Part shown: piece by piece, positions 2,654-64,000 of the stretch
Layout of the letters: every line of letters begins with the position of its first letter
Numbering within the stretch: the stretch's first letter is position 1
From: Vallitalea pronyensis
GTDB lineage: Bacteria > Bacillota > Clostridia > Lachnospirales > Vallitaleaceae
NCBI RefSeq assembly: GCF_018141445.1
Contig: NZ_CP058649.1
Location: forward strand, 3,801,001-3,865,000
Length of the DNA stretch: 64,000 nt
Reading direction: 5' to 3'
The notes under the pieces: model-generated
What the model saw: the letters and a program-made list of their open reading frames with translations, nothing else
Databases searched by the model: none
Told to the model about the DNA's origin: nothing
Translations under genes and position numbers: made by a program

Positions 2654-2706
2654 TTTCTTCATCCCCTTCTTAAGGTTAATGAGCAACATAAAACCTTTTT
2701 AAAAAA

Positions 2707-2785: not shown

Positions 2786-2801
2786 ACATCAATACCTTTC
2801 G

Positions 2802-4172: not shown

Positions 4173-4174
4173 AC

Positions 4175-5776: not shown

Positions 5777-5832
5777 GGGTATCACCTACTTTCTTGTTTC
5801 TTGAAGATCATAAAATCCTTCATTGTTATGGA

Positions 5833-6216
5833 CTACAATGCACATTCTCCTGTTTCTTGTGTTCTTACACGAATAGCATCTGAAACAGGACATACGAATA
5901 TTTTACCGTCACCCATATTACCTGTTGAATTAATGGCCATTATGGTATCAACAACTTTATCCACTTCATCATCGTGTACAACCATTAATAACAACCTTTT
6001 TGCAATCAGTCGATGGGCTTCAGAAATGGATTCCATAATGGGTTTTGACTTAATCATCTTCCCATCTATTAATTCTTCGATGAGCTCATAATCCACTTTC
6101 TTCTTGCCTCGACCATATACTCTTCTACAGGTAATAGCAGGGAATCCACTTTCAGATAAAGCTTTTTTGGTTTCATTAATTTTATTCATTCTAATAATGG
6201 CTAAAACTTCTTTCAT
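5833..6216 (-). CDS. nifI2: NifI2, PII-like regulator of nitrogenase
   Basis: This 127-aa GlnB-family protein lies between nifI1 and nifD. This position defines NifI2 in methanogens and anaerobic bacteria, where NifI1 and NifI2 bind dinitrogenase directly and switch it off when fixed nitrogen is plentiful, with 2-oxoglutarate and ATP relieving the block. Visible features are the MKEVLAIIRMNK first strand, a T-loop region (YGRGKKKVDYELIEE) and the GDGKIFVCPVSDAIRVRTQETG C-terminal PII segment. The ATG at 6216 has GGAG 8 nt upstream, which makes the GTG at 6225 less likely. The paralogue upstream has the same start arrangement. Confidence 0.93.
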   Translation of the reverse strand: MKEVLAIIRMNKINETKKALSESGFPAITCRRVYGRGKKKVDYELIEELIDGKMIKSKPIMESISEAHRLIAKRLLLMVVHDDEVDKVVDTIMAINSTGNMGDGKIFVCPVSDAIRVRTQETGECAL

Positions 6217-6237
6217 CTGATTCACTCCTATCTGTTT

Positions 6238-6561
6238 TTATAACTCTGCTTTACCTGTACTGATGGTATATGCGGCCTCAACTTCTGAAACAAAGATTTT
6301 ACCATCTCCAAAAGTACCTTCACCGGTCTTTGCATTTTTCATGATAATACTAACCACTTCTGATACAGCATCTTCTTCAACAACCATTAGCAATATTTCT
6401 TTTGGTATTTCATCATAATAAATATCGCCTACTTTAACACCTCTTTGTTTCCCTCTACCCACAACATCTATTTTTGTTACTGCAGGATAATTAGCATCTG
6501 CTAATTCACTTAATACAGTCGATACTTTTTCAGGTCGAATAATTGCTCTTATCATTTTCAT
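6238..6561 (-). CDS. nifI1: NifI1, PII-like regulator of nitrogenase
   Basis: This 107-aa PII-family protein is encoded directly after nifH and 21 nt before nifI2. MKMIRAIIRPEKVSTVL and the FGDGKIFVSEV segment match the GlnB/NifI fold, and the short T-loop (GRGKQRGVKVGDIYYDEIP) fits NifI1. It acts with NifI2 as a heteromeric inhibitor of the MoFe protein. The ATG at 6561 is preceded by GGAG with 8-nt spacing, while the in-frame GTG at 6570 is too close to that site. Tandem nifI genes between nifH and nifD argue for post-translational control in addition to leader control of transcription. Confidence 0.93.
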   Translation of the reverse strand: MKMIRAIIRPEKVSTVLSELADANYPAVTKIDVVGRGKQRGVKVGDIYYDEIPKEILLMVVEEDAVSEVVSIIMKNAKTGEGTFGDGKIFVSEVEAAYTISTGKAEL

Positions 6562-6698
6562 TGCATTCACTCCTATCCAATATCATCCAATATATTTGTT
6601 AATCTGCCATTAAGTTGTATTTTAATTGTTAAAATGTTATAATTTGATTATGGAATGCGGTAACTTAACAGCATATGCTCTCGCCAAAAAGACTTATG

Positions 6699-7553
<855 letters not shown>

Positions 7554-8156: not shown

Positions 8157-9653
8157 ATGACATGTCATAACATGAAAAAAGTTCATGACTATTTAGCCGT
8201 TATTGACAAAGTAATTGAGGATGGAAAGTACAAAGCAACTTGGGCATCATTGATGAATCATAAAGTTCCTCATTGGTATCAACATGCAAAATTTGGTATC
8301 TTCATACACTGGGGTGTCTATAGTGTACCTGCTTTTGGTGAGTGGTATCCGCGTTGGATGTATAAACCACATGAACAGAAATATGGCCAGTATTTTTATA
8401 AGTATCATATAGAAAATTATGGATCTCTTAAAGATTTTGGCTATAAAGACTTCGTTCCTATGTTCAAAGCTGAAAAGTATAACCCTGCTGGGTGGGCTGA
8501 TCTCTTCAAAGAAGCTGGTGCTAAATTTGTGATGCCCGTTGCGGAACATCATGATGGCTTTCAGATGTATGATAGTGACTTATCGGAATGGTGTGCTACC
8601 AAAAAAGGTCCTATGCGTGATTGTATTGGTGAGTTGAAAGAAGCCCTTGAAGAAAGAAATCTGGTATTCACCACATCTTCACATCGGGCTGAACACTATT
8701 GGTTTTCATGTGGAGGAAGAGATTTGGATAGTGATATACAAGGGGATATTCCTTATGGTCATTTATATTGGCCATCCTATAAAGAACCTTATGACACGCA
8801 AGCTGATTATAACTATGTGGAAGAACTTGACAAAGATTTTCTCGACGATTGGCTCGCAAGAACTTGTGAAATTGTAGATAAATACCAGCCCAAGATTGTA
8901 TACTTTGACGCATGGAACCAGACAACCGCATTTAAGCCTTATATGCAAAAATTTGCCGCTTACTACTATAATCGTGGTATTGAATGGGGAAAAGAAGTTA
9001 CCATCAACTATAAATTTGATACGATGATGCAGTCAACAGCAGTTCCTGATATTGAACGGGGTCAGCTTAGTGATATTTCACCGATGTTTTGGCAAAATGA
9101 TACGTCTATTGCAACCAATTCTTGGTGTTATAATAAAAATAATAACTACAAAAAAACCCATGACATTATCTGTGATTTAGTTGATGTGGTCAGTAAGAAT
9201 GGTTCCTTCTTGCTGAATATTGGCCCAAAGGCAGATGGTACAATTCCTGACAAAGAAGTGGCCATCTTAAAAGAAATTGGTAAATGGCTTCACCTTAATG
9301 GTGAAGGAATCTATCATTCCACCTACTGGAAAAAATATGGTGAAGGTCCAACGAAGACTGTTGAAGGTCATTTTACAGATACACTTCGTGAGCCTTATAC
9401 CAGTGAAGATTTCCGCTTTACATTCAAAGATGGTGTTTTATATGCCTTTGCATTGACGTGGCCTGAAGACGGATGCGTGCGTATTAAGACATTAGCAAGA
9501 AATTCCAGTCATTATTGTGGTACCATAAAAGATGTAGAAGTGCTGGGAGCTCCAGACGGCTGTCAATTCCAATTATGTTCTGACTATTTGTCTGTATGGG
9601 CGAAAGGTATTGTAACAAAAAATCCTGTTTGTATCAAAATACATATTGAATAA
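8157..9653 (+). CDS. Alpha-L-fucosidase, glycoside hydrolase family 29
   Basis: This 498-aa protein has the GH29 catalytic barrel. WYQHAKFGIFIHWGVYSVPAF (residues 40-60) and AEHHDGFQMYDS (129-140) are family signatures, and Asp251 in IVYFDAWNQ is the expected nucleophile. The enzyme removes terminal alpha-L-fucose by a retaining mechanism. There is no signal peptide, so it probably acts in the cytoplasm on imported oligosaccharides. AGGAGG lies 9 nt before the ATG. It is a single-gene unit with its own promoter and terminator, divergent from nif. The GH95 gene at 57930 and the sulfatases in the window suggest a shared diet of fucose-rich, possibly sulfated glycans. Confidence 0.92.
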   Translation: MTCHNMKKVHDYLAVIDKVIEDGKYKATWASLMNHKVPHWYQHAKFGIFIHWGVYSVPAFGEWYPRWMYKPHEQKYGQYFYKYHIENYGSLKDFGYKDFVPMFKAEKYNPAGWADLFKEAGAKFVMPVAEHHDGFQMYDSDLSEWCATKKGPMRDCIGELKEALEERNLVFTTSSHRAEHYWFSCGGRDLDSDIQGDIPYGHLYWPSYKEPYDTQADYNYVEELDKDFLDDWLARTCEIVDKYQPKIVYFDAWNQTTAFKPYMQKFAAYYYNRGIEWGKEVTINYKFDTMMQSTAVPDIERGQLSDISPMFWQNDTSIATNSWCYNKNNNYKKTHDIICDLVDVVSKNGSFLLNIGPKADGTIPDKEVAILKEIGKWLHLNGEGIYHSTYWKKYGEGPTKTVEGHFTDTLREPYTSEDFRFTFKDGVLYAFALTWPEDGCVRIKTLARNSSHYCGTIKDVEVLGAPDGCQFQLCSDYLSVWAKGIVTKNPVCIKIHIE

Positions 9654-39105: not shown

Positions 39106-40902
39106 TTATTTTGTTCTTCCTGCTACGCCAATGAAGTACTTTCTCATGAACTTGCTTTCATCATCAAGTTCCATATCATCCACAGTATGAAGAACCATCT
39201 CCTTTGTAATGATTGAATGCTCCCCTGCTGCTGTTATAATTCGACTAAATACTTCATCTCGTTTTACTTCTTTTGTCAGATTTAGCAAGGTGATGACCTG
39301 TTTATACGCTCCTGGTTCATAGTCAAATGAACTTAATTCCTTAAAATTATCAAATGACTTGGCGTAAGCTTTCATGGCTTTAAGGTCTTCCACAGTCATT
39401 TCACGGTCCTTAAATAACCCCATGCGTTCATATTGCTCAATGGGTGCATCATTTGCAATCATCTGCGCTCGTATACCATTAATCATCTCAACTTCAACAT
39501 CGTCATCTTCATACACATTCAGTTGAGCAGGGTCTTTGGTTACGTCAAAAAGCATGGTCCCATATTGAGTCGGGTCATTAAAACCTGCTGCACTTACTGG
39601 TATTTTCATAAGCTTACAGCCTTTCGTAAAATCAAATCCATCATGAATCTCTGTCTCTTGAAGTTCTGCAGGCTTAAACATACTTCGCATATGCGTCGGC
39701 ATCAATGTATATTCATTCAGTGGTTTATTGTCTTTCTTGGCAGGTGCCAATAAGTATACATGTTGACCATCTGTTATATTAATATGACTACCATGATAAC
39801 CAAACAATGCTGTTTTTCTAACGGGTTTATCTTCCTGAAGTACTGGTGCTAAAGGCTTACCCATCATCGTAGTCGGAATGTCCACATTGAAGTATTCAAG
39901 AAGGGTTGGCGCAATATCAATGGTTTGTGCCAACGCATCCGTATGTACATTTTTCCTACCACTACGGGGATCCCATATAAACAATGGTATATGGGCAACT
40001 TCATTATACGTGGGCATGATCGACTTAGACCACCAGCCATGTTCCCCTAACATATAACCATGGTCGGTATTGACTATAAGCATGGTGTCTTCCCACATAT
40101 TATACTTATCCATCATATCAAGGACTTTACCAAGATACTTATCACACATGCTGAGTAGAGCTGCATAACGTTTTATACCATGCTGTACCACTGCGTCACT
40201 TTCCATAACCGGTCCATAAGGCGGCCAGTCAAACTCTTCTTCACCATAGTCATTATCAGGATAGAGGTTATAATACTCTTCAGGTGCAAAAAAAGGTTCG
40301 TGAGGGTCAAAGGTTTCAATTTGCAAAAACCAATTATCCTCATTTTTATTCTCCTCCATAAAATTCAAACCATTCTTGAAGGTTACAGCTTGTGGAAAAT
40401 CCTGTTCCTCTTTCAAATACTGTCGATTGACAATATCATGCTTAAGTATGTGAAAACCATAATGCTTCTGCATATACTCCGTCACTTTAAAGGGTGTTTC
40501 AGGAAATTCTACCTTACCGACATAGCCTTTCCACGGGTCACCTTCTTGTCCACGACTGATTTCCCATGAACTATACCTTGTATGATAGGTACACCCACCA
40601 TCTTCCCAGTAGTGTTGATGATCGGAGGTTATATGTGTATAGATGCCGTTATTCTTAAGAATTTCAGGCATGGCATCATCAAAAGGTTCCATGGGACCCC
40701 AACTTCTGTGTAAAAAATTATATCGACCAGTTTGAAGTTCCCTTCTTGCTGGCATACATGGTAAACTACCTACATAACAAGTATCAAAAGTCACGGTCTT
40801 TTCTCCGAGCCTTTTAAAATTAGGTGCTTGGATCCATTCACATCCATAATTTGGTAACATACGTCTGTTTAATGAATCAAACATAACCATAATCGCTTTC
40901 AT
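39106..40902 (-). CDS. Type I sulfatase (formylglycine-dependent)
   Basis: This 598-aa sulfatase has the Cys-type activation motif C-M-P-A-R at residues 49-53 (SLPCMPARRELQTGR), where Cys is converted to formylglycine. Metal ligands are in MVMFDSLNRR near the start and LIVNTDHGYMLGEHGWWSK near residue 290. There is no signal peptide, so it probably works on imported sulfated sugars. In anaerobes the radical SAM enzyme anSME performs the activation, and no anSME gene is in this window. The gene lies 17 nt after the ABC permease gene, so sugar import and desulfation are co-expressed. The second of two ATGs (40902) has the better spacing to AGGAGG. Confidence 0.93.
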   Translation of the reverse strand: MKAIMVMFDSLNRRMLPNYGCEWIQAPNFKRLGEKTVTFDTCYVGSLPCMPARRELQTGRYNFLHRSWGPMEPFDDAMPEILKNNGIYTHITSDHQHYWEDGGCTYHTRYSSWEISRGQEGDPWKGYVGKVEFPETPFKVTEYMQKHYGFHILKHDIVNRQYLKEEQDFPQAVTFKNGLNFMEENKNEDNWFLQIETFDPHEPFFAPEEYYNLYPDNDYGEEEFDWPPYGPVMESDAVVQHGIKRYAALLSMCDKYLGKVLDMMDKYNMWEDTMLIVNTDHGYMLGEHGWWSKSIMPTYNEVAHIPLFIWDPRSGRKNVHTDALAQTIDIAPTLLEYFNVDIPTTMMGKPLAPVLQEDKPVRKTALFGYHGSHINITDGQHVYLLAPAKKDNKPLNEYTLMPTHMRSMFKPAELQETEIHDGFDFTKGCKLMKIPVSAAGFNDPTQYGTMLFDVTKDPAQLNVYEDDDVEVEMINGIRAQMIANDAPIEQYERMGLFKDREMTVEDLKAMKAYAKSFDNFKELSSFDYEPGAYKQVITLLNLTKEVKRDEVFSRIITAAGEHSIITKEMVLHTVDDMELDDESKFMRKYFIGVAGRTK

Positions 40903-40919
40903 CATATTCCTCCTTTGCG

Positions 40920-41858
40920 TTAATTCTTCATCCCTGATGAAACAACACCTTGAACAAAGTACTTCTGTGCAAATATATAAACAATAATCGTCGGAATAAC
41001 CGAGATTAATGTAGCTGCCATCAACCAGTTATAGTGAGTTGCTGCACTTCCTTTAAACATCTGCAACCCTAGCTGAACAGTTTTCATTTTCTCTGAAGTC
41101 GTAAATATCAAAGGATAGAAAAAATCATTCCATGTTGCCACTGTTTTAAAGATAGTCAATGTTGCCAATATCGTCTTTGATAGTGGCACATAGATGTATA
41201 CATACGTTTTTATAGGTCCACAACCATCAATTTTCGCTGCATCATCCAGCGATCTTGGAAATGTGGAATAGAACTGCTTACACAAAAACACACCAAATGA
41301 TCCTGCCATAAAAGGAACAATTAAAGACCAATAGGTATCTAAAAGCCCTGTACCACCTTGTCCCAGGATGTTATTACCACCCACTAAGGGAACCATTCTC
41401 ATAATCATATACTGTGGGATGATGACGGACTGTGGTGAAATCATCAGACCTGTTAAGATCATCACAAAAAGAATATCTCTCCCCTTAAACTTTAACCTGG
41501 CAAAGGCAAATCCACCAATTGAATTAAAAAGAAGACTGCCTCCAACAACAATAGTTGTTACAAATAAACTGTTGGCAAAATATCTTGACCAGTTCCCCAT
41601 TTGCATGGCCTGTCTAAAGGCTTCAATATTAGTAAAGCTTTTTGGAAGCCATCTAAAATTAATCAATGATATTTCTTGGTCGGTTTTAAATGCAGTTAAT
41701 ATCACAAAAATAACTGGTATCAGAACGACAACAACCCACGCTGTTAAAATAATATAGGTTAAAATCAGCTGAAATTGCTCTTTACGCTTCTTGCCAAGCT
41801 TGTTTTTTTTAGTACGCTCTTTATTCTTTTTTTCCTGATTGATTGTATTAGTTTGCAT
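40920..41858 (-). CDS. Carbohydrate ABC transporter permease (MalG/UgpE type)
   Basis: This 312-aa protein has six transmembrane helices and the EAA-type loop DDAAKIDGCGPIKTYVYIYVPLSK that contacts the ATPase. A Lys-rich N-terminus precedes the first helix. The start at 41858 is chosen because AAGGTGGGG lies about 6 nt before it; the longer frame to 41894 overlaps the upstream gene needlessly. It overlaps the MalF-type permease gene by 11 nt. No ATPase is encoded here, so a shared MsmK-type ATPase elsewhere is expected. Confidence 0.93.
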   Translation of the reverse strand: MQTNTINQEKKNKERTKKNKLGKKRKEQFQLILTYIILTAWVVVVLIPVIFVILTAFKTDQEISLINFRWLPKSFTNIEAFRQAMQMGNWSRYFANSLFVTTIVVGGSLLFNSIGGFAFARLKFKGRDILFVMILTGLMISPQSVIIPQYMIMRMVPLVGGNNILGQGGTGLLDTYWSLIVPFMAGSFGVFLCKQFYSTFPRSLDDAAKIDGCGPIKTYVYIYVPLSKTILATLTIFKTVATWNDFFYPLIFTTSEKMKTVQLGLQMFKGSAATHYNWLMAATLISVIPTIIVYIFAQKYFVQGVVSSGMKN

Positions 41859-42738
41859 CTGTTTCCCCACCTTTTCCATAGCGCATATTAACAAGGGTAA
41901 TCGTCAATATAACAACCAGTAATACAACTGCTTGTGATGAAGCATATCCCATTTTATAATACTCAAAACCATTCAAGTAAATCTGATGAGCCAATGTTGT
42001 TGTTGAATTAACCGGACCACCATTGGTGACAATCAACACCTGACCAAATACCTGGAATGAACGTATGCAAGCCATAACAAATATGAAAAATGTTGTTGGG
42101 GCAAGCATGGGTATCGTTATATAAATGAACTTTTGCCAACCATGAGCACCATCAATACTAGCTGCTTCATAAAGGTACTCAGGAATACTCTGCAAACCAG
42201 CCAGATTGAGGACCATGTTATACCCTACTCCAATCCAAATACTCATGATTGCAATGGAAATCATAGCCATTCCTGGGCTACTGACCCATTGAACCGGACC
42301 AATACCAAATTTTCTTAGGGCCATATTTAAAATACCTGCCCTTGTGTCATACAAATATATCCAGGCCATTGATATAGCTACCATAGAAAAGATATTGGGA
42401 AGATAAAACCAGGTTCTATACAATCCCTTACCTTTTAGCTTTTTGTTCAGTAACATGGCCAATCCTAATCCTAGAGCCATTGTTGGAACAATGGTCATTG
42501 CACTATACCTGAGGGTATTCATGAAACCTTTAACAAACAAATCATCTTGAAAAAGGTTGATGTAATTTTTAAAACCAACAAAATTGGCTTCAACCAAGTT
42601 GTAGTCAGTAAAGGACATGGCCACTGACCAAACAACGGGTATCATAATAAATAACAAATATATGAGAAAACTGGGTGCCACAAGCAAATAACCAATGTTT
42701 TGTTTTTCCAGATTTTTTTTCTTTTTCGTCTTCACCAC
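41848..42738 (-). CDS. Carbohydrate ABC transporter permease (MalF/UgpA type)
   Basis: This 296-aa protein has six transmembrane helices. The EAA loop reads YEAASIDGAHGWQKFIYITIPMLAPT near residue 200. It is the partner of the downstream MalG-type permease. The start is one of two adjacent GTG codons (42738 or 42735) after AGGAGG. A 17-bp hairpin separates it from the binding-protein gene upstream, the usual arrangement for making binding protein in excess. Confidence 0.93.
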   Translation of the reverse strand: MVKTKKKKNLEKQNIGYLLVAPSFLIYLLFIMIPVVWSVAMSFTDYNLVEANFVGFKNYINLFQDDLFVKGFMNTLRYSAMTIVPTMALGLGLAMLLNKKLKGKGLYRTWFYLPNIFSMVAISMAWIYLYDTRAGILNMALRKFGIGPVQWVSSPGMAMISIAIMSIWIGVGYNMVLNLAGLQSIPEYLYEAASIDGAHGWQKFIYITIPMLAPTTFFIFVMACIRSFQVFGQVLIVTNGGPVNSTTTLAHQIYLNGFEYYKMGYASSQAVVLLVVILTITLVNMRYGKGGETDAN

Positions 42739-42750
42739 ATCGCCTCCTAA

Positions 42751-42785
42751 AACAACTTGAAGAACCTAAGGTTCTTCAAGTTGTT
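42751..42785 (-). terminator. Intercistronic hairpin between binding-protein and permease genes
   Basis: Perfect 17-bp arms (42751-42767 and 42769-42785) flank a single base and are followed by TTTT on the minus strand. It is likely a partial terminator or mRNA stabiliser. Confidence 0.8.
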
Positions 42786-42799
42786 ATGATTTTACCCAA

Positions 42800-44134
42800 T
42801 TACTCGCTAATAACTTTGTTCCATTGTTCTTCAGCAAAATCGAGTCCCTGTTGTAAACCACCGCCTTGGAATGCTGCGTCCATGGAGGTTCTTAATTCTC
42901 TAACTGCTGCAGTATATTTCGCATTGGGAACAGTTGAATACAAGTGCGAACGTTCATATGCGTGTACAACCTTTTCAAATTCAGGATTCATACCAATGTA
43001 ACTTTCATCCAATGATTTTCTTCCTGAGTAAAAAGAAGCCACATCTTGTGAAATCTTCAATGACTCTTTGGAGAACATATGAATCAACAAGTCTGCTGCC
43101 ACGTCTTTATGAGGTGAGTTTTTGTTTGCTGCCATATAATTACCAATAAGTAACGTATTCATATCACTTTTAATAATACCGATTTGACCTGGGAATGCAT
43201 CATCAAGAACTGCATAAAAGCTATCAGCCATTAACGCCATGGAAGCTGTACCAAGCTGCAGTCCACTACCTGAAGTACCAGGATCCTGAAGCATAATGGC
43301 ATCACTTTTAGATGCTTCAATTAACTTATTCATTGCTGAATAGACACCTGGTGTATTAAATGCTGCCTTTAAGTCATCATTCCAAAGTTTCAAGTTTTTA
43401 TCTTCCATTGAACCAAAAGTAAATACCGTTTGCTCTTGGTCAGGATCAATTTCAAGACCTGAAATAAGTACCATATCATTGTCATCATAAACAGTCATCT
43501 TATCTGCCAAAGTCAAAATATCTTCAAGTGATTTCACATGCATATCTGCTTCTGTAAGTCCAGCTTGTTCAGCAATATCTTTACGATACATAAAAACTCT
43601 TGTTGACGGATAAAACATAGCGTATTGTTGTCCATCATCTTGTCCAGCTAATAATATATTCTCGTGAAAGTCATCATAACCGTCCCAATCTTCAGGCAAA
43701 TAATCATTTAATGGAAGTAAAGCATCCATTGCTTTGATGGTTCCGAATTGTCCATAACCCGTCATAAATACATCGGGTCCTGAACCGCCGATTAAACCAG
43801 TGTTCAATTTTGTAAAATACTCGCTCCAAGCAATATAGCTTAGTTCGTAACTTACATTTGGGTGCTTTTCAACATAATTGTCAAAAATTGTGCGATAAGC
43901 TTTGTCATAAGCAGGATCACCAGAACCAGCCACCCAAATTGAAATCTTTACAGGCTTCTCAGTTTTTTCAGAATCTGATTGACTTTTGTTGCTTTGACTC
44001 GTTGAACTATCACTACCTGTTGAACTTTCTTTATCTTTTGCACTGTCATTACTCTGTCCCCCACATGCAGATAACAATAACGCAAGAATAAGTATTAAGG
44101 ATACCACTGACATTTTTTGTTTCCACTTTTTCAT
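42800..44134 (-). CDS. Carbohydrate ABC transporter substrate-binding lipoprotein
   Basis: This 444-aa family 1 extracellular solute-binding protein has a lipoprotein signal ending LLSACGGQS (Cys24) followed by a Ser/Lys/Asp-rich linker to about residue 60. The body has the typical WVAGSGDPAYDKAYRTIFDNYVEKHPN start and GTASMALMADSFY hinge region. It is the first gene of the operon, with GGGAGG before the ATG, and is directly controlled by a promoter that has a LacI-type operator at its start point. The ligand is unknown; the sulfatase in the operon suggests a sulfated oligosaccharide. Confidence 0.93.
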   Translation of the reverse strand: MKKWKQKMSVVSLILILALLLSACGGQSNDSAKDKESSTGSDSSTSQSNKSQSDSEKTEKPVKISIWVAGSGDPAYDKAYRTIFDNYVEKHPNVSYELSYIAWSEYFTKLNTGLIGGSGPDVFMTGYGQFGTIKAMDALLPLNDYLPEDWDGYDDFHENILLAGQDDGQQYAMFYPSTRVFMYRKDIAEQAGLTEADMHVKSLEDILTLADKMTVYDDNDMVLISGLEIDPDQEQTVFTFGSMEDKNLKLWNDDLKAAFNTPGVYSAMNKLIEASKSDAIMLQDPGTSGSGLQLGTASMALMADSFYAVLDDAFPGQIGIIKSDMNTLLIGNYMAANKNSPHKDVAADLLIHMFSKESLKISQDVASFYSGRKSLDESYIGMNPEFEKVVHAYERSHLYSTVPNAKYTAAVRELRTSMDAAFQGGGLQQGLDFAEEQWNKVISE

Positions 44135-54973: not shown

Positions 54974-55624
54974 TTAATCATACTCTAAATGCATAGCATT
55001 GATGGCTAACTTTACTCTATTTTTTACATTGAACTTATGTAACAGGCGGGAAACAATGTTCCTCACCGTTCCTTCTGATAGAATAATTTCTTTCGCAATT
55101 TCTTTATTACTCAAGCCTTCAATAATGAGTTTAATCACACTTAATTCTCTTTCTGTTAGTTTAACACGAAGCTGATTGTTACGGTCACTTTTATTTTTCA
55201 ACTTTAATCGCATAGGACTAAACATTTTATTATCCATTAGTTTCATACCGATTGCCACACTTTTAATGCAAGGTATGAGGTCTTCTGGATAGATTGTTTT
55301 TGATAGAAACGCATCCACATTATTTTTTATGGCGGACTCGATATAGGGCACTTGGTCATAACTGCTTAGTATAAATATTTTTACATGAGCATGACGGGCT
55401 TTAATCATTGTTGTTGCTTCGATTACAGATATATCCGATACCTGTAAATCGAATAAAATAATATCAGGTACTGTCTTTTCACAAAATAATAGGGCTTCAT
55501 GAATGCTTTGCCTGCACCCAATTACGTGGATATCATCATCTTGTTCAATAATTTGCTTTAAGCTATGGGCCGATACATTTTCATTATTAATTATTAAAAT
55601 CTTAATCATCTTATTAAAGTACAT
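54974..55624 (-). CDS. Orphan NarL/LuxR-type response regulator with atypical receiver
   Basis: This 216-aa protein has a receiver domain (residues 6-125) and a LuxR-type helix-turn-helix (LTERELSVIKLIIEGLSNKEIAKEIILSEGTVRNIVSRLL, 152-192). The phosphoacceptor Asp59 (PDIILFDLQVSD) and the conserved Lys in FLSKT are present. The acidic pair that binds Mg2+ is replaced by Asn-Asn at residues 13-14 (ILIINNEN). Such changes usually weaken or abolish phosphorylation. No histidine kinase is nearby. The start may be 55624 or 55609; neither has a strong ribosome binding site, which implies low expression. Possible targets are the two lipoprotein genes upstream. Confidence 0.88.
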   Translation of the reverse strand: MYFNKMIKILIINNENVSAHSLKQIIEQDDDIHVIGCRQSIHEALLFCEKTVPDIILFDLQVSDISVIEATTMIKARHAHVKIFILSSYDQVPYIESAIKNNVDAFLSKTIYPEDLIPCIKSVAIGMKLMDNKMFSPMRLKLKNKSDRNNQLRVKLTERELSVIKLIIEGLSNKEIAKEIILSEGTVRNIVSRLLHKFNVKNRVKLAINAMHLEYD

Positions 55625-55863
55625 ATTTTATATAAATATTAATGTACTTTCCACCTCCATCTATACTTCCCAACTTGATACACCTTATTTTATCAAATAT
55701 TGTTTGAATATTAAATACTATTAGGCTATATTTATCATTATTTAAGTAGGTAAAAAAACCCATTTCTTTTATAGAATTAAGCCAAACAATAAGGATTCTA
55801 TTTTTATGTATATGATAGAGGGATGTGCTTTAATACTTAATTCAATGATTAGGTATGAAAAAA

Positions 55864-55892
55864 CAGACCCAAAACATACTGTTTTGAGTCTG
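55864..55892 (-). terminator. Terminator of the first lipoprotein gene
   Basis: A 13-bp stem (55864-55876 with 55880-55892, one wobble) with a 3-nt loop is followed by six T on the minus strand. Confidence 0.85.
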
Positions 55893-55912
55893 CTCACTAT
55901 AATGTGTATCAC

Positions 55913-56638
55913 CTATTGTTGAAAAGTAACACTATCAATAATACTTTGTATAATTGCAGGTGATTCTTCATCATCGTCATAGTAGCTTCCTTCAATTATT
56001 ATTGCATAATCGTTCATAATGGCTACATATGATGTCATGATACAATTATCTTCATCTATTGACATTACTGCTGTGTAAGTAAGGAATTTTTGACCACCTA
56101 ATTCTACTTCTGTTAATTCAGTGGTTTTTTCTTCATCACATAATAAATTGGTAGTTGCACGATCAAACTCTGCATAACCCTGAAGTGATTTATAAAATTC
56201 TTTATCAAATTGTTCAACTGTACATGTTACATTTGCTAAACCAGTTGCATCTGTAAAACAAAAAATATCGACACTTTCAGCTGTTGCTACTTCACTTACA
56301 TCAGATAATAATGATTTATCAATTAATTCCTCTTCCGTATATTGATACCAATCTTCAGGTATTTCAGCTTGAAGGTTAAAAAAGTCATTCTTATAAATAT
56401 TACCTTCTGTCACACCTAAAGTAAGTACACCTGCACTGGCAGATTCTGTTGGATCATCTGTACTATCTGTATTTCCCTCAGTTTCATCATCTGCATCATT
56501 ATTTTGATCATCGGCTGAGTCCACTGAACTATCAGGTTTACCGGTTTCAGCAGAATCACCATCTTTGCTTTGACAACCTACAAAAGCCATCATTGTGAAT
56601 ACAAGTATTAAACATAATAAAATTTTAATCTTTTTCAT
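55913..56638 (-). CDS. Secreted lipoprotein of unknown function (paralogue 1)
   Basis: This 241-aa lipoprotein has a signal peptide ending in the lipobox FVGC (Cys22) followed by an Asp/Ser/Thr-rich linker to about residue 70. A domain beginning LGVTEGNIYKNDFFNLQAEIPEDWYQYTEEE is shared with the next gene. The domain resembles those of clostridial lipoproteins with a PsbP-like fold, but I cannot name a family with certainty. GGAG lies 7 nt before the ATG at 56638. The tandem paralogue upstream and the near-identical three-box promoter arrays indicate duplication with regulation preserved. Confidence 0.75.
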   Translation of the reverse strand: MKKIKILLCLILVFTMMAFVGCQSKDGDSAETGKPDSSVDSADDQNNDADDETEGNTDSTDDPTESASAGVLTLGVTEGNIYKNDFFNLQAEIPEDWYQYTEEELIDKSLLSDVSEVATAESVDIFCFTDATGLANVTCTVEQFDKEFYKSLQGYAEFDRATTNLLCDEEKTTELTEVELGGQKFLTYTAVMSIDEDNCIMTSYVAIMNDYAIIIEGSYYDDDEESPAIIQSIIDSVTFQQ

Positions 56639-56775
56639 TGTTATCTCCATTTCATTTTTAATTGTGCCACATATATACTCTTTTAACGCGTTAAATCATT
56701 CATCCTTTGTTTCAACATACAGCTATAGCATTATTTGAGCACTACATATTTTGCATGCTCTTTCAGCACATAACG

Positions 56776-56868
56776 ATTATAATATGTTTATAAAAAAATT
56801 GTCAGATGTCGATTGGCTATTTTTTTTAGTCAAATGTCATGTATCTTTTCATAAAAATGACAAATGTC
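56776..56868 (-). promoter_or_regulatory. Promoter with three-box operator array, lipoprotein 1
   Basis: TATAAT on the minus strand (56776-56781) with CTGACA 18 bp upstream. Three 10-nt boxes of the form GTCARATGTC lie at 56801, 56829 and 56859, 28 and 30 bp apart. The outermost is part of a TGACA-AA-TGTCA palindrome. Confidence 0.65.
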
Positions 56869-56888
56869 ACTGAGTCTGTTTTACTTTT

Positions 56889-57479
56889 TTATTTTTCATT
56901 ATTAAACGTAACACTATCAAAAATATCTTGTACCCCTTTTGTATTTGCTTCATTTTCTATATAGGAAGCTTCAATTTCTACAATGTAATCATCAACCATT
57001 ACAGAATAATTTTGATATTTTAAACTTTGCTTGTTTGCCTTTAATGAAGCACACTTAAGGTCTGCAAAAGTGCCTTCCTCTACTTCACCAACATGATCGT
57101 CGTATATTGTTTCAATTAGATCACAGATAGATTCCACATATTCTTTTTCTGTTGTATACAAATCTTTTTTCATGGGATGCACCTTACATAAAACAGTACC
57201 CATTTGATCTTCACTGGTTAACTTCATAATACATACATCTTCTTGTGCTGTAATATCACTCATTTCTGACAAAAATGTCTCTTGAAGTCTTTCTTCTTCA
57301 CTTGCTTGAGACCATCCCTCTGGAATGTCAACTGTTAGGTTAATAAAATCATTGGTATAGGTATTACCTTCTGTTACACCCATCGTCGGTAATTTTTTTT
57401 CTTCTTTTTTTTGGCACCCTATAGCAGCCATCATGATAAATACCAGTAAGAAACATACTATAATTCTATTCTTTTTCAT
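56889..57479 (-). CDS. Secreted lipoprotein of unknown function (paralogue 2)
   Basis: This 196-aa lipoprotein has a signal peptide ending AAIGC (Cys22). It lacks the long linker of paralogue 1 and passes directly into MGVTEGNTYTNDFINLTVDIPEGWSQASEEE, which aligns along its whole length with the paralogue. The C-terminal VQDIFDSVTFNNE matches IIQSIIDSVTFQQ. Its function is unknown. GGAG precedes the ATG. It is transcribed towards paralogue 1, but each gene has its own promoter region. Confidence 0.75.
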   Translation of the reverse strand: MKKNRIIVCFLLVFIMMAAIGCQKKEEKKLPTMGVTEGNTYTNDFINLTVDIPEGWSQASEEERLQETFLSEMSDITAQEDVCIMKLTSEDQMGTVLCKVHPMKKDLYTTEKEYVESICDLIETIYDDHVGEVEEGTFADLKCASLKANKQSLKYQNYSVMVDDYIVEIEASYIENEANTKGVQDIFDSVTFNNEK

Positions 57480-57613
57480 TTTCTTTCTCCATTCTATTTT
57501 TTAGATGTGCTCACATCACTCAATTTCTTAACAATGTCTACTATTAACTTTCATGATAACTGACATGTGTATCATTCAATCAAGTATATGCTCCCCTTTT
57601 TGAGCACCTAGAG

Positions 57614-57706
57614 ATTATACAACTTTTTCTCAGAAAATATTAGATGTCAATTGACTAAATATTATGGTCATAAGTCATCTAATTTTTACTATCTATGACA
57701 AATGTC
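57614..57706 (-). promoter_or_regulatory. Promoter with three-box operator array, lipoprotein 2
   Basis: TATAAT on the minus strand (57614-57619), with boxes at 57639, 57667 and 57697. Distances from the -10 box (20 bp) and between boxes (28 and 30 bp) are identical to those upstream of paralogue 1, although the sequences between have diverged. The rest of the 57480-57929 gap holds no other gene that I can support. Confidence 0.65.
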
Positions 57707-57929
57707 ATCCTAGCTATGGTTGATTATGCATTTATAGAAGTATCATTTGACTTGCAGTTTAAACACCATTTTTCTTAACCTGTTAGAAGTAACCATTAGG
57801 CTCTATAAGTAACAATTTGGTCCTACTAAAAAACATATCTGTATACTATAATTTAGTCAAGTAAACTGAGAATAGCCATTTATTTATGGCATCATTGTAT
57901 CTACAAAAAGTTATATGGAGGACAAGAAG

Positions 57930-60218
57930 ATGAATATGTGGTATAACAAACCTGCAAATGCATGGTTGGAATACTTGCCAGTTGGTAATGGAAGACTCGG
58001 TGCCATGATCTCTGGAGGCGTTTCAAAGGAAATACTTCAACTCAATGAGGATTCAATCTGGTATGGCGGACCTGCGGAAAGAGTTAACCCTGATGCAAAG
58101 GAAACCATAAAAAAACTACAGACCATGATCATGGATGGAAAAGTATGGGAAGCGGAACAACTGGCTTTCATGGGTATGACAAGTACACCAGACAGTCAAC
58201 GGCATTATCAAACAGCTGGAGAATTATTAATTGAGTACCCTAATCTAAGTGAGGATTTTTCTGCGTACAAAAGAGAACTTGACCTTTCTCAGAGTCTGGT
58301 TCGTTCATCCTTTGTATGCAATGGTGTCCAATATGAAAAAGAATGTTTTGCCAGCTTCCCTGATCAATTGATTGCCTATAAAATAAAGGCTGACAAAAAG
58401 AGAAGTGTGTCTCTAAAAATAAGATTAGCTAGAGGCAGGTATCTGGACTACTGTGACAGGGATGGACAGAATACCATTATCATCGGCGGAACAAATGGCG
58501 GAAAAGGCGCTATTGACTTTACTGTTGCAGCAAAAGCCAAAGCGAAAGGCGGTAAAGTATATGTCCTTGGGCAATTTCTATTTGTTGAAGATGCCGATGA
58601 AGCCGAAATCTATCTTTCCATGGCAACCACATTCTACAACAGCCATGCAAAAGAAGCTGCTCTAAGAGCATACAATGTCTTACAGACAAAATCATATGAA
58701 ACGATAAAAAAAGATCATATAAATGATTACAAAAACATCTATGATCACATGCATTTTACCTTAGGCTCTCAAGAAGAAATGGATTCATTGGGTTCTAAAC
58801 CTACTGATGAACGGCTCCAATCTATCTTGAATGGCAGTGAAGATGTTCCTTTTAATGCCTTGTATTTTCAATATGGAAGATATTTACTGATATCATCCAG
58901 CAGAAAAAATTCTCTCCCTGCTAATTTAAGAGGTATATGGAATAATGAATTCGATCCACCATGGGACAGTAAATTTACCATTAATATCAATATAGAAATG
59001 ATTTATTGGGCAGCTGAAATCTGCAACATGCAGGCATGTATAGAACCTTTATTTGACCTGATAGAACGGATGCGGGTAAGAGGTAGAAAAGTAGCTAAAG
59101 ACATGTATGGCTGCAAAGGTTTTGTTGCCCATCACAATACGGACTTGTGGGCGGACTGTGCACCACAAGACATCCATCGGGCTGCATTTTGGAGTTTGGG
59201 TGCTGTATGGATATGTTTCCACCTATGGGATTATTATGATTATAGCAGAGACGTGGCATTCTTGAAAAAAGCCTATCCTACCATGAAAGAAGCTGCAGCG
59301 TTTGTCTTAGATTATCTTATGGAAGACAAAGACGGTTTTCTAGTGACTTGCCCTTCCCATTCACCTGAAAATAGCTACTACTTAGAAGGTAGACGGGATG
59401 TAAAACCCAGTATGACTTATGGACCTACATCGGATAATATGATTATTTCATATTATTTTAAAAGGATTCTGGAGTCTGCGGACATATTAGGGATTCAAGA
59501 TGATTTTGTTGAAGATATAAAAGCTGCGTTAAAAAGAATCCATCCTATAAGGATAGGTAAACACGGACAGATACAGGAATGGGTTAAAGATTATGATGAA
59601 CCCGAACCTGGTCATCGTCATACGACGCAGCTCATTGCTTTTCATCCTGCAAATGATATTACATTAAGAGGAACACCTGAGCTTGCTACAGCTGTAAAAC
59701 GCACCCTTGAAAGAAAAATTGAGTTTGGGGAAACAGCTTCTGAAGGATGGGCAATTGCTTGGAAAGCTATTTATGGTGCAAGGCTTGAAGACATCCCTAT
59801 GGCTGAGGAATTCTTAAACATGAATTATGTCAGAGCCACTGCACCAAACCTTTTTGGACTATGTGTAACCAAGGATTTATTTGTGATGGATGGCAACCTA
59901 GGCGTTGTTACTGCTATAGCAGAAATGCTCTTACAATCTCATGCTGACGAATTATCATTACTGCCCTGCTTAATTCCAAGTTGGAAAGAAGGAGACATAA
60001 AAGGGTTAAGAGCCAGAGGAAAATATACAGTAGATATGAAGTGGCATGACGCCAAACTGGATAAAGCTATTATTTATGCAGGTAAAGACGGACTCTGCCG
60101 AGTTAGAGGCAAACATCCTATCATGGTTCAAGATGTGGTATATCGACAATTAGAAGCATGTGTTATTGAGTTTACTGTTCAAAAAGGTAAAACATATACC
60201 ATTGTCCATAAGAGATAA
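57930..60218 (+). CDS. Glycoside hydrolase family 95 (alpha-L-fucosidase or galactosidase)
   Basis: This 762-aa GH95 enzyme has an N-terminal beta-sandwich (WYNKPANAWLEYLPVGNGRLGAMISGG) and a catalytic alpha/alpha barrel. The barrel carries LPANLRGIWNNEFDPPWDSKFTININIEM and the signature HHNTDLWADCAPQD, where GH95 places its catalytic Asn/Asp residues. The final domain is a beta-sandwich. Family members cleave alpha-1,2-fucose or alpha-galactose by inversion. There is no signal peptide. The ATG at 57930 lies 8 nt from GGAGG; the ATG at 57915 overlaps it. It is single, next to an unassigned large enzyme and a sulfatase on the other strand. Confidence 0.93.
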   Translation: MNMWYNKPANAWLEYLPVGNGRLGAMISGGVSKEILQLNEDSIWYGGPAERVNPDAKETIKKLQTMIMDGKVWEAEQLAFMGMTSTPDSQRHYQTAGELLIEYPNLSEDFSAYKRELDLSQSLVRSSFVCNGVQYEKECFASFPDQLIAYKIKADKKRSVSLKIRLARGRYLDYCDRDGQNTIIIGGTNGGKGAIDFTVAAKAKAKGGKVYVLGQFLFVEDADEAEIYLSMATTFYNSHAKEAALRAYNVLQTKSYETIKKDHINDYKNIYDHMHFTLGSQEEMDSLGSKPTDERLQSILNGSEDVPFNALYFQYGRYLLISSSRKNSLPANLRGIWNNEFDPPWDSKFTININIEMIYWAAEICNMQACIEPLFDLIERMRVRGRKVAKDMYGCKGFVAHHNTDLWADCAPQDIHRAAFWSLGAVWICFHLWDYYDYSRDVAFLKKAYPTMKEAAAFVLDYLMEDKDGFLVTCPSHSPENSYYLEGRRDVKPSMTYGPTSDNMIISYYFKRILESADILGIQDDFVEDIKAALKRIHPIRIGKHGQIQEWVKDYDEPEPGHRHTTQLIAFHPANDITLRGTPELATAVKRTLERKIEFGETASEGWAIAWKAIYGARLEDIPMAEEFLNMNYVRATAPNLFGLCVTKDLFVMDGNLGVVTAIAEMLLQSHADELSLLPCLIPSWKEGDIKGLRARGKYTVDMKWHDAKLDKAIIYAGKDGLCRVRGKHPIMVQDVVYRQLEACVIEFTVQKGKTYTIVHKR

Positions 60219-60330: not shown

Positions 60331-62688
60331 CTAATAACTTTTTTTCAGCCAACCCATTCCCTTCTTACATGTGGTGGACAGTTCATCATCATCAAAGTGT
60401 ATCTGAATATCATACAGATGTTTTATATTGATATGGACAGCTGTGACAATGGGTTCATAGGGTTCAATGATTAATTGTTGATGGTTTCTTTGAACGGCAC
60501 AATTAAATGCGTGAATATGACCTTGATCATCTTCAAAAATATAGGCCGATGTTAAGGCTACTTCCTCAAGACATTTAAAATGTTCATGTACATCGTTATC
60601 ACAACACCAACCATCATCAGGTAAAGTGATGTCTCCTGCTTCTCCAACCACATTGGCTTCTTGGTGCATGGACACTTTACCTTTAGGCCTTTTATACCAT
60701 CCACTTATCATATCCACATATTGTTCTGAAATAACTTTATCTCGTCTATGGTATTTACCAGTATCTTGTTCAGTTTCCTCCCAAGCATGTACGGGTACAT
60801 GTGGGTCAACAATGAAAGCCCATCTTAACTTACCTGTTTCGCCATCAATTAACTGCATACATGCACCTAAGGTATCCATGGTCTGATATAAGTAATCGAT
60901 GTTGCCTGTTAGCTGATACAGATACCATGTGGCATAGGTTTTCCAGGAAGTCCATCCATGGGGACTGTTGATCATGTTCTTATTAAGTAACACATCATAT
61001 TGAGCCTCCCAGAAACGAATGGTTCCTCCATTCATGCGACAATCGGGGATAATCATCTGTTCCAAGCACCGATGTTTCTTTATCATGTATTCCGCCACTT
61101 GGGTATATTTCTTTTTGTCCTTCTCATCTTCTTGCACTAGAGCAAACATGGCTAACTGTAAAGTTGAACAAGATAGCATACCATCTTCAAAAGTATGTTC
61201 ACCTTCCGTTCCAATGTTGTCTTTTCTTACAGCCAGATCATCAACAGCTTTTTGTACAGAGCTATAATGTCTTTCATAGCAATCATGCCATTGGGCATCA
61301 AGCTTTCCTAGTTCTTTTTCCACAAGAACCAGTTCAAGCATTGATTTCGCCATATAGATAACACTGGTATAGTGCTCACCCATGGCATCTTCTCTTCCTG
61401 AACCCCAGCCTGTTTCTGTTCTGTAAGCACCATCTTCGCCCTGTTGTAAAATCAGCCAATCGGCTAATTTACTGGCTAAATGAAGGTAATGAATGTCTTT
61501 TTTTGCTTCATATGCATCAACTAATAGACTAACCATGGAGGCTGTATTGCAAATCCGCTTGGCCATGATGATGGGTTCGCCTTTATCAACATCGTACATT
61601 AATGGCAGAATTTCTTTGAAATTGTCTTCAACCTGGGCATCCAGATTCTTATCTGGAAAATGTTTTGCAGCTAAAAAACCTGAAAAACATCCATACCAAC
61701 TCTCTAAGTGGGTTGATGCTTTTTGCTCCATGGAAATGGATGCTTTTCGCGCTTGTTTTAAATACCAAGACCATTGATGGCGTACATATATCTTTGCTTC
61801 TGTTTCATAGCCATTTGAACTAATGGCAAACAGGTTATACACACCTGGTTCATCCAATCCATCATAATGCATAACACATGGGCTACCATGGGTCCTGCCA
61901 ATAAGTATCCTATGATCTTTTGTATTAGGCTTCTCAATATATAATGCTGTTTCACAATCTGATAGTACCTTAATGGTCAATGTTTCATTTTTCGTTAAGG
62001 TATAACGCTCCGCTTGTATCATGGGCACATGACAAGCTCTTATCATATATTCTTGAACAGATGCTACACCATCTATGGGCATCAAATAGAATGTCCAGAC
62101 TTTCTCTTCTCCTGGCATAAGGTGTTGTAAGTTTTGGGGATGCCTTTCTGGAAGAGGTCCTCCATGAAGCAAATCCATGTTAACTGTATGAATGCGATGC
62201 CCGCCGTAGCCATTGACACGATTATAATGCATGTGCCATGATGCTACTGGTTGGGGTGAACAGATACCTATTATTTTATTAAGCGGCGACATAAAATAGC
62301 CCCAAAAAAAGTTCTTTTCACAGCGTAACATAGTGGGAAAGTATTTATCATTCCATTGGGGATAGCTATCCATATAGGTATCAATACCCAGCTTCAAACC
62401 AACTTTTTCAGGCTTAAATACGCTAAGGCCGTTATTTTTTAGGGTTGCTGTGATGGTTACTTTCTCTTCTTCCCACAGATACCTTAACCCATAGTGAATA
62501 CTGTCCTTTTCACCTTCAAACGCATAGGGACTTAGTTTGCGCATATCCACGTTATATTCCTTATGGTTGGCCACACCATACCATTGAGGTCCTATATAAT
62601 TCACGTCCTCTGTAAAAGGCACGTGTATATCTTCTTCTTGATTCTGAAAAAGAATATATGCCAAGGTACCGTCTTCTCTAATTTTCAT
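60331..62688 (-). CDS. Large unassigned protein, probable glycan-active enzyme
   Basis: This 785-aa cytoplasmic-type protein has no signal peptide. The first 310 residues look beta-rich (galactose-mutarotase-like sandwich). Residues 320-690 look like an alpha/alpha toroid, with repeated helix pairs and motifs such as CFSGFLAAKHFPDKN, ASKLADWLILQQGEDGAYRTETGWGSGRED and NSPHGWTSWKTYATWYLYQLTG. A C-terminal beta region ends the protein. This layout recurs in polysaccharide lyases and in six-hairpin glycosidases such as GH88, GH105 and GH127, but I cannot match it to one. The neighbours, GH95 and a sulfatase, support action on a sulfated or uronic-acid glycan. AAGGTGA precedes the ATG. Confidence 0.7.
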   Translation of the reverse strand: MKIREDGTLAYILFQNQEEDIHVPFTEDVNYIGPQWYGVANHKEYNVDMRKLSPYAFEGEKDSIHYGLRYLWEEEKVTITATLKNNGLSVFKPEKVGLKLGIDTYMDSYPQWNDKYFPTMLRCEKNFFWGYFMSPLNKIIGICSPQPVASWHMHYNRVNGYGGHRIHTVNMDLLHGGPLPERHPQNLQHLMPGEEKVWTFYLMPIDGVASVQEYMIRACHVPMIQAERYTLTKNETLTIKVLSDCETALYIEKPNTKDHRILIGRTHGSPCVMHYDGLDEPGVYNLFAISSNGYETEAKIYVRHQWSWYLKQARKASISMEQKASTHLESWYGCFSGFLAAKHFPDKNLDAQVEDNFKEILPLMYDVDKGEPIIMAKRICNTASMVSLLVDAYEAKKDIHYLHLASKLADWLILQQGEDGAYRTETGWGSGREDAMGEHYTSVIYMAKSMLELVLVEKELGKLDAQWHDCYERHYSSVQKAVDDLAVRKDNIGTEGEHTFEDGMLSCSTLQLAMFALVQEDEKDKKKYTQVAEYMIKKHRCLEQMIIPDCRMNGGTIRFWEAQYDVLLNKNMINSPHGWTSWKTYATWYLYQLTGNIDYLYQTMDTLGACMQLIDGETGKLRWAFIVDPHVPVHAWEETEQDTGKYHRRDKVISEQYVDMISGWYKRPKGKVSMHQEANVVGEAGDITLPDDGWCCDNDVHEHFKCLEEVALTSAYIFEDDQGHIHAFNCAVQRNHQQLIIEPYEPIVTAVHINIKHLYDIQIHFDDDELSTTCKKGMGWLKKSY

Positions 62689-62769: not shown

Positions 62770-64000
62770 TTATCGCGTCTCAATCAATCTTTTTACCAAT
62801 TCAGGATAACGGTCATCTTCATCCCCAACTTCTTTCTTCATATGAAGAAGTTGAGCCTTCAGATCTTTCACTACTTCTTGATACTCTTGGTCATGGTACA
62901 CATTCTTTAACTCAAATGGATCATTTCTTAAATCATAGAGTTCCCACCCTGGTGGTGTAGGTTCTTGTAATGCATGCTTTGCATCCAAGGGTAAACCGTA
63001 AAAGAAGATTAATTTATAATCTTTGGTCCGAATACCATAATGGGCAGGGTTGTCATGGTGGGTGAGATGCATCCAGTATCGATAATAGATTTTGTTGGGC
63101 CAATCCGCAGGCGTGTTCCCTTTTATATTCTCCCGAAATGACCTTCCCTGCATAACGTCTGTTTTCTGTAAGCCTGCATAATCAAGTAAAGTGGGCGCAA
63201 AATCCACATTGGATATCACATCTTCAAGAACCGTTCCTGCTGCAATTTCTTTAGGATATCGCACTAAAAATGGCATCTGAAGAGCTTCTTCATAGATCCA
63301 CCGTTTATCAATATAATCATGTTCCCCAAGAAACATGCCTTGGTCAGATGTGTAGATAATGATGGTGTCATCCAGGATACCTTCTTGTTCAAGGTAGTCA
63401 AGCAGCTCCCCTACACTATCATCTATGCCTTTTACCGTTCTTAAATAATCTTTTAAATACTTTTGATAGGCAGCCTTTGTTCTCTCTGTCTCATTGAGCC
63501 CTGTAATGTCTAATTGCCCTGTTTGATAATTCGGATCACTCATCAATGTGACAGCATTACGTACAGGATTTCTTTCGGATACGGAAGTGCCGTATGTCCT
63601 TGTGGCTATAGAACGATGACTCTTGTCTTCCCACAAACTATCCGGCTCAGGTATGTCTACACCATCAAGAATATGCTCATAGCGAGGATGGTATTCAAAA
63701 TTATCATGAGGTGCTTTATGATGACACATGAGCATAAATGGTTTATCTCTATCACGTTTTTTAAGCCAATTAAGGCATTTATCGGTAATAATGTCCGTGA
63801 CATAACCTGTGTGTTGTTTTCCTTGATCTTTATGATGTATGTTTTCGATGGCATCCCAGTCTGTTTCCTTATCCCAAAAATAAGGATTAAAATAGTATCC
63901 CTGACCAGGAAGCACATCGTAATAATCAAACCCTTTTACTTCGCAGTGAACATGCCACTTACCCACAACTGCCGTTTGATAGCCGTCCTCTTGCATCATA
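62770..64000 (-). CDS. Type I sulfatase (5' end beyond window)
   Basis: The 410 codons visible lack the N-terminal formylglycine motif, which would lie to the right of the window. Visible sulfatase features are AVVGKWHVH near the left of the visible part, MLMCHHKAPHDNFEYHPRYEH, YTSDQGMFLGEHDYIDKRW (metal-binding Asp and neighbouring residues) and a C-terminal WELYDLRNDPFELKNVYHD block typical of heparan- or fucan-type arylsulfatases. It lies 81 nt upstream of the 785-aa gene, in the same direction, so they probably form an operon. It is not a close copy of the sulfatase at 39106. Confidence 0.92.
   Translation of the reverse strand, partial: MMQEDGYQTAVVGKWHVHCEVKGFDYYDVLPGQGYYFNPYFWDKETDWDAIENIHHKDQGKQHTGYVTDIITDKCLNWLKKRDRDKPFMLMCHHKAPHDNFEYHPRYEHILDGVDIPEPDSLWEDKSHRSIATRTYGTSVSERNPVRNAVTLMSDPNYQTGQLDITGLNETERTKAAYQKYLKDYLRTVKGIDDSVGELLDYLEQEGILDDTIIIYTSDQGMFLGEHDYIDKRWIYEEALQMPFLVRYPKEIAAGTVLEDVISNVDFAPTLLDYAGLQKTDVMQGRSFRENIKGNTPADWPNKIYYRYWMHLTHHDNPAHYGIRTKDYKLIFFYGLPLDAKHALQEPTPPGWELYDLRNDPFELKNVYHDQEYQEVVKDLKAQLLHMKKEVGDEDDRYPELVKRLIETR

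Follow-up and report, generated by a model that had tools for sequence, protein, structure and literature searches.

Two paralogous lipoprotein genes of the anaerobe Vallitalea pronyensis are each preceded by three similar boxes, and the locus raises the question of what kind of operator these boxes form and which regulator reads them. In the 64,000-bp stretch of DNA analyzed here (the window), lipoB (57479-56889), lipoA (56638 or 56650-55913, depending on the start ATG) and the gene of a NarL-family response regulator (55609 or 55624-54974) follow one another in the order of transcription on the minus strand, array B lying upstream of lipoB and array A upstream of lipoA. Our preferred reading, to which we give a probability of about 0.7 from sequence comparison, is that the boxes are DesR-type operators and that the adjacent regulator binds both promoters, probably activating lipoB and lipoA.

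Two three-box arrays and their promoters

Both arrays read on the minus strand, and in both the boxes start 88, 58 and 30 bp before the -10 element, boxes 2 and 3 thus standing at +30 and +58 from the start of the palindrome that forms box 1. This first box (56858-56869 in array A, 57696-57707 in array B) has the same letters in both copies and is the perfect, DesR-type palindrome TGACATTTGTCA. In array A, box 2 (56828-56839; TGACATTTGACT) keeps the left half of the palindrome, has a non-palindromic right half and includes a TGAC-N3-TGAC direct repeat, and box 3 (56800-56811; CGACATCTGACA) overlaps the -35-like CTGACA (56805-56800). Their counterparts in array B are TGACTTATGACC (box 2, 57666-57677) and TGACATCTAATA (box 3, 57638-57649), the latter with the left half only; across the arrays, the left halves of boxes 2 and 3 read TGACAT, TGACTT, CGACAT and TGACAT. 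The preliminary description of this sequence had recognized three boxes per array, as 10-mers at 56801/56829/56859 and 57639/57667/57697, and their distances from TATAAT, measured to the near side, are indeed exactly 20, 48 and 78 bp. Its view of the boxes as exactly conserved fits box 1, identical in both arrays as a full palindrome, but not boxes 2 and 3, in which the left half alone is kept. The box form that it proposed, GTCARATGTC, finds four of the six boxes with at most one mismatch but misses boxes 2 and 3 of array B, which have two mismatches each, and at this tolerance it is not enriched across the whole window (10 found versus 7.5 expected).

The arrays can be aligned without gaps, with 71 of 110 positions identical, compared with 26 to 40 when the register is shifted by 1 to 3 bp, and lipoA and lipoB are themselves 37-38% identical. 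Common descent of this kind would explain the exact spacing, and the likeness could then be a remnant of the duplication of the promoters, with no regulator at work. Spacing alone does not prove selection, because an ungapped duplicate of shared ancestry gives exact spacing too. However, the boxes are better conserved than the sequence between them, with matches in 32 of 39 box columns versus 27 of 50 interbox columns (one-sided Fisher p = 0.005, with the extent of the boxes set by our own definition), and both copies keep the full palindrome of a known regulator family, which makes paralogy without a regulator very improbable. In the 50 bp upstream of box 1, 16 positions match between the arrays.

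Palindromes of the TGACATTTGTCA type correspond to the published DesR site (ATGACA-N2-TGTCAT) and to the site of pneumococcal RR11, whose motif is given as ATGACATTTGTCAT-N7-AGTGACA, with a half-site at +22 (PMC11034029). The core TGACANNTGTCA is exact in both arrays, and in both, extra TGAC half-sites lie between the palindrome and the promoter. According to PMC7726353, DesR and related ABC-transporter operons have an inverted plus a direct repeat, with three regulator-binding regions. The arrangement is therefore not unknown, and the earlier statement that no described system has it is, in its broad form, wrong: by palindrome and layout, both arrays are real operators of the DesR type, a class already known. 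DegU, whose site GNCATTTA (PMC2245950) resembles the left half GACATTTG, was rejected as the binder; its sites are 8-mers in other arrangements, and the palindrome would go unexplained.

The two promoters differ in quality. The -10 element of lipoA (TATAAT, 56776-56781) belongs to a CTGACA-18-TATAAT promoter that matches the consensus at 11 of 12 positions, ranks first among the 24 promoter-like matches of the region (shuffled sequences give 19.4) and has its near-consensus -35 element in the overlap with box 3. The -10 element of lipoB (TATAAT, 57614-57619) has no good -35 element, the letters at the 18-bp place reading CTAATA, and the promoter scan of the region listed no promoter-like match there; since it has no good -35 element, this promoter more likely needs an activator. 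An activator of the Crp/Fnr family could be considered, since box 1 shares the 5-2-5 geometry of the PrfA box (TTAACANNTGTTAA). In class II Crp/Fnr promoters the site is centered at -41.5, whereas the proximal box is centered about 36 bp before the likely start (as estimated from the -10 element) and is non-palindromic, and no Crp/Fnr gene was found among the 35 window proteins scanned with Pfam, so that a PrfA-like activator is scarcely credible here. Between lipoA and the regulator gene lies a terminator-like hairpin on the minus strand, followed by six T residues (55853-55897; -20 kcal/mol, z -5.8), which a separate pattern scan did not list. Since hairpin and T run follow lipoA, the regulator gene is probably transcribed separately from it; its own upstream region has no TGACANNTGTCA-type box, even when one mismatch is allowed.

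Array B sits in the intergenic region common to lipoB and a divergent GH95 gene. The window also includes genes for an alpha-L-fucosidase, two sulfatases, an SBP/permease transporter and the GH95 enzyme (8157-9653, 39106-44134, 57915-60218 and 62770-63999), a set that looks like one for the use of sulfated fucan. An open reading frame of 785 aa (60331-62688) beside the GH95 and sulfatase genes has no Pfam match at E 0.001. At the other end of the window (1295-7523), a NifH-type gene forms a row with three genes of the nitrogenase component 1 type, and two small open reading frames lie between them.

LipoA and LipoB resemble PsbP-like surface lipoproteins. In a Foldseek search with the predicted model of LipoB (pLDDT 71), the best matches were PsbP proteins (E 2.5e-5, TM 0.45-0.48); neither protein matches PsbP_2 (PF18933) at E 0.1, and three of six members of the lipoprotein family do, with a best E value of 8.5e-5. 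The family is sporadic: at E 0.001, a five-member profile had matches, many of them weak, in 47 of 295 genomes from the order. None of the 37 lipoprotein-homologue loci outside the source genome (33 distinct places, most with 1.5-kb flanks) has the exact box, so that, as far as seen, the link between box and lipoprotein is particular to the source genome. A one-mismatch box near the homologues of one related genus (L072 and L074-L076) was not counted because it is on the side of the neighboring gene, alone and without an array.

The palindrome follows the recognition helix of the regulator

The palindrome is rare in the source genome. Exact TGACANNTGTCA occurs at 7 sites in 6.33 Mb (3 for the reversed-pattern control), of which two are the box 1 copies, four lie inside genes and one is intergenic. 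This last site stands 167 bp before an ABC-transporter gene and 4.4 kb from the regulator gene of the same operon, which also holds a HisKA_3 kinase gene and the genome's second-best match to the window regulator. When the region 55625-57915 was shuffled 2000 times with preserved dinucleotides, two exact copies never arose and a single copy arose in 12 shuffles. The genome search for box arrays that had been suggested earlier yielded little beyond the locus itself: a paired-box pattern with an 18- to 24-bp gap has 6 matches genome-wide (control, 1), of which these arrays account for 3, and a sequence profile of both arrays, run against 23 genomes, recovered no site at E < 0.01 other than the arrays themselves. 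A genome-wide regulon was rejected on these counts.

As box 1, which contains GACATTTGTC, matches the RR11/DesR motif, the relatives of the window regulator were examined for the palindrome, in neighborhoods of about 7 kb on either side of each regulator gene. Among the 20 neighborhoods of the best regulator matches, exact TGACANNTGTCA was found 8 times in 303 kb, at five loci (reversed control, 0), and at all five the recognition helix of the regulator reads GTVRN; a sixth GTVRN locus, L151, has one-mismatch sites only. Because all five box loci had this helix, a link between helix and box was taken as a hypothesis and tested on 60 further loci, the strongest of 81 new places (96 candidates, 15 of them already covered); one more of the 81 was added later. 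Here, the exact box was present at 31 of 41 GT[VI]RN loci versus 1 of 19 others (Fisher p 3.8e-7), and the regulator at the sole exception proved to be GTVRN, giving corrected counts of 32 of 42 versus 0 of 18. With both sets combined, exact TGACANNTGTCA lies near 37 of 48 GT[VI]RN regulators and near none of 31 others, that is, in 79 neighborhoods of the same order, one of the 80 loci (L196) being left out for a regulator that could not be parsed; 11 of the 48 GT[VI]RN loci are without an exact box. The loci are related to one another, and independent contrasts number only two pairs on supported branches and five on all branches, too few for a sign test to reach significance. No exact site was found in 166 kb of 52 other loci; since these had been fetched for other patterns and are not a random sample, loci of the GTVKN type are the preferred control. 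Across the loci L136, L142, L144, L152, L153 and L156-L215, what lies next to the GT[VI]RN regulators includes ABC exporters accompanied by HisKA_3 kinases, operons for sugar ABC transporters, and PTS genes, and a palindrome followed by downstream TGAC sites recurs in relatives.

The window regulator carries this helix. Its open reading frame begins at 55624, and the second ATG, at 55609, fits the family better; the protein matches PF00072 and PF00196 over the Pfam cutoff, as expected of a NarL-family receiver with a GerE/LuxR helix-turn-helix, and its nearest solved relatives by sequence are DevR, VraR, DesR and NarL. The recognition helix reads EGTVRNIVS, with GTVRN as in DesR and Ile185 in place of the Tyr that follows RN in all 37 box-linked regulators. 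The positions of NarL matching R183, N184 and S187 touch bases, and all three residues are kept. The comparison thus favors the candidate binder named in the preliminary description, the adjacent regulator, as far as a shared helix can point to one.

Other regulators of the source genome deserve the same scrutiny. Among the 12 of 125 candidates that were scored, six match at E 1e-60 or better, and three of these are GT[VI]RN regulators: that of the window and C1:2872164, both with exact boxes, and C1:4888512, with TGACATTTATCA, one mismatch away, before an ABC gene. The other three have no exact box, although one of them, of the GTVKN type, has two one-mismatch boxes at its locus, which makes such boxes weak evidence. 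It might then be that the boxes are indeed DesR-type but are bound by the C1:2872164 or the C1:4888512 regulator, with the window regulator silent, a decoy or a heterodimer partner. Both have a GT[VI]RN helix and an acidic pair in the receiver, each adjoins a HisKA_3 kinase gene and an ABC transporter gene, and at both a box precedes the transporter gene (exact in one, with one mismatch in the other), whereas in the window regulator the acidic pair is altered and the helix has Ile where Tyr is usual. We nevertheless consider a distant binder unlikely: the gene of the window regulator is 1.2-2.1 kb away from the arrays, and C1:2872164 and C1:4888512 are about 1 Mb distant. The 33 sites of the 60-locus set, found in flanks of about 7 kb, are 0.1-6.1 kb from the regulator gene of their own locus, and for 32 the distance is at most 4.5 kb.

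Repressors of the BlaI/MecI/CopY family provide another reading of the boxes, in which a protein with the core KACANNTGTM would repress from the box over the -35 element. The CopR/CopY operator is given as TACANNTGTA in PMC7253601, the core is present in box 1 with its GACATTTGTC, and one of the 10 PF03965 matches of the source genome (two of them weak) is preceded by GACAAATGTA and TACATTTGTC. Box 1 is, however, the only one to fit KACANNTGTM, as boxes 2 and 3 have lost the palindrome's right half; the window has no PF03965 match, the nearest being about 0.46 Mb away; and the outer bases TGACA..TGTCA go with NarL-type regulators. We therefore hold such a repressor to be quite improbable. The pair before the BlaI-type repressor gene (L110:1432-1466, 25 bp apart) resembles the DesR-type core in sequence, and this likeness could be a source of false assignment between the two families.

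An altered receiver and wider steps

With the adjacent regulator retained as the probable binder, its receiver domain stands out. At the metal-binding acidic pair it has N8 and N9, where 79 of 79 relatives are acidic; it keeps D54, the phosphorylated Asp, and K104, and has S82 where 79 of 79 relatives have Thr. The intact phosphorylation pocket (DD, D, T/S, K) is thus absent, the domain is a pseudo-receiver under the definition of PMC12632262, and, judged by these residues, part of the regulator's usual on/off site seems to be missing. As the pair that should hold the metal is Asn-Asn, we infer that phosphorylation has little or no part in control. No histidine kinase, and so no cognate DesK-type kinase, was found with Pfam among 25 open reading frames between 35.0 and 64.0 kb (32 of at least 90 aa, the other 7 lying inside or across larger ones), and the earlier portrayal of the regulator as atypical and orphan agrees with both observations. 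In a tree, it is on a very long branch (3.73 changes per column) and has no supported placement, its similarity to the GTVRN group over the whole protein is no greater than that to other regulators, and among the 41 genomes searched no match in another genome exceeded 38% identity. The leader of the gene (55600-55662) has a good Shine-Dalgarno sequence, GGAGGTGG, and behind it a perfect 9-bp hairpin, AAAGUACAU/AUGUACUUU. The first ATG falls within this hairpin, and the likelier start, the second ATG, lies just beyond it; the fold has a z of only -1.8. This hairpin could bring the Shine-Dalgarno sequence and the start together or work as a translation switch.

The second departure from the class is in the spacing of the half-sites. 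The step from the palindrome to the next half-site is +30 in the window, whereas 23 of the 37 boxes of relatives that could be oriented are followed by a TGAC at +20 to +24; 10 have no TGAC, the near-identical L157 and L158 have it at +28, and two have it only at +46 or +51. These oriented boxes come from 33 of the 37 box loci, L161, L188, L194 and L215 being dropped because no target gene was recognized. The sugar and PTS types, and one ABC type, have an additional TGAC at +43 to +46. Across 116 genomes of the order, the palindrome is paired with a TGAC 73 times, and 24 of these pairs have an offset of +20 to +24, versus 12 expected from a flat distribution; since the control with the reversed pattern yields 43 matches, many of the 73 may be due to chance. 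An offset of +30 was seen in the two window arrays and otherwise only in a tandem repeat of a single genome, and a few pairs fall at +28, +29 and +31. The window arrays therefore do not have the spacing of about 22 bp seen in most relatives and in RR11, and steps of 30 and 28 bp are rare rather than proven unique. The earlier description of a geometry of about 29 bp survives as an unusual feature within the DesR class, tempered by the near-identical pair at +28. In the literature on DesR-type sites consulted here, which did not include the original work on the des promoter (Najle 2009, Cybulski 2004), no description of 28- to 30-bp steps was found.

Comparison with known systems helps to place the module. 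The cold-sensing DesK-DesR two-component system acting on the des promoter of Bacillus subtilis also relies on a NarL-family regulator with a GTVRN helix, but the window regulator has no adjacent kinase and has an NN receiver, its presumed targets are lipoproteins rather than a desaturase, and its array is duplicated, with half-sites at +30 and +58 from the start of the palindrome. The DesR-type ABC systems (YvfTU-YvfRS in Bacillus, SA1313/1314 in Staphylococcus, pneumococcal RR11 and relatives in the order) share the palindrome of the window; in the relatives L136, L142 and L191, a HisKA_3 kinase gene is next to the regulator gene and an ABC gene next to the box. Unlike the window, these systems mostly have a spacing near 22 bp, a kinase-regulator pair, a kept acidic pair and a transporter as the likely target. 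The GTVRN regulators beside sugar ABC or PTS genes (L144, L152, L153, L156, L160, L162, L163, L165, L166 and L179) come with two or three TGAC sites, and the L144 group has three boxes, like the window. The helix-turn-helix domains of L144, L152 and L153 are narrowly the most similar to that of the window regulator among those compared (48-50%; next, 47%), whereas the steps are 20/23 bp in the L144 group or 24/22 bp in L179, the acidic pair is kept and the neighbors serve sugar uptake.

By analogy with DesR, we infer binding by the window regulator, cooperativity, and activation over repression. A dimer of the regulator (54974-55609) would bind the distal palindrome TGACATTTGTCA through its GTVRN helix, after which additional subunits would fill the two TGAC sites that lie 30 and 58 bp closer to the promoter and are weaker and only half conserved. 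The subunit at the site overlapping the -35 region could contact RNA polymerase, and the outcome would most likely be strong activation of lipoB, with its weak -35 element, and lesser activation of lipoA, with its near-consensus one. Half-sites 2 and 3 may possibly be bound by a heterodimer with another DesR-type regulator, in the manner of BldM-WhiI, a pair with atypical receivers in which, according to PMC4125116, the BldM homodimer binds a palindrome and the heterodimer a half-palindromic site. These two proteins differ from the window module in motif and lineage, and a heterodimer is only a possibility here.

A derived member of the DesR class

What had appeared as an unknown operator becomes a member of the DesR class with a candidate protein partner, and the new part is a derived DesR-type version: re-spaced, duplicated, kinase-less, equipped with a pseudo-receiver and directed at lipoproteins. 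A possible history, which we advance tentatively and regard as doubtful, is that a regulator of the DesR lineage lost both its control by phosphorylation and its kinase, kept its DNA code (GTVRN and TGACANNTGTCA) and now drives a lipoprotein pair through a re-spaced three-site operator, with steps of 30 and 28 bp instead of about 22 bp. If this is true, the switch would assemble in a different geometry and would respond to protein level, to a ligand or to a heterodimer partner, and not to the state of the membrane. The module also bears on how far DesR-type assembly tolerates a changed phasing of its sites, and it offers a natural case for control through a pseudo-receiver, which is called a mystery in PMC12632262.

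For this order of Clostridia, the comparison provides a rule: a NarL-type regulator with a GT[VI]RN helix usually has TGACANNTGTCA nearby. The likely targets of many unstudied regulators may therefore be readable from the genome.
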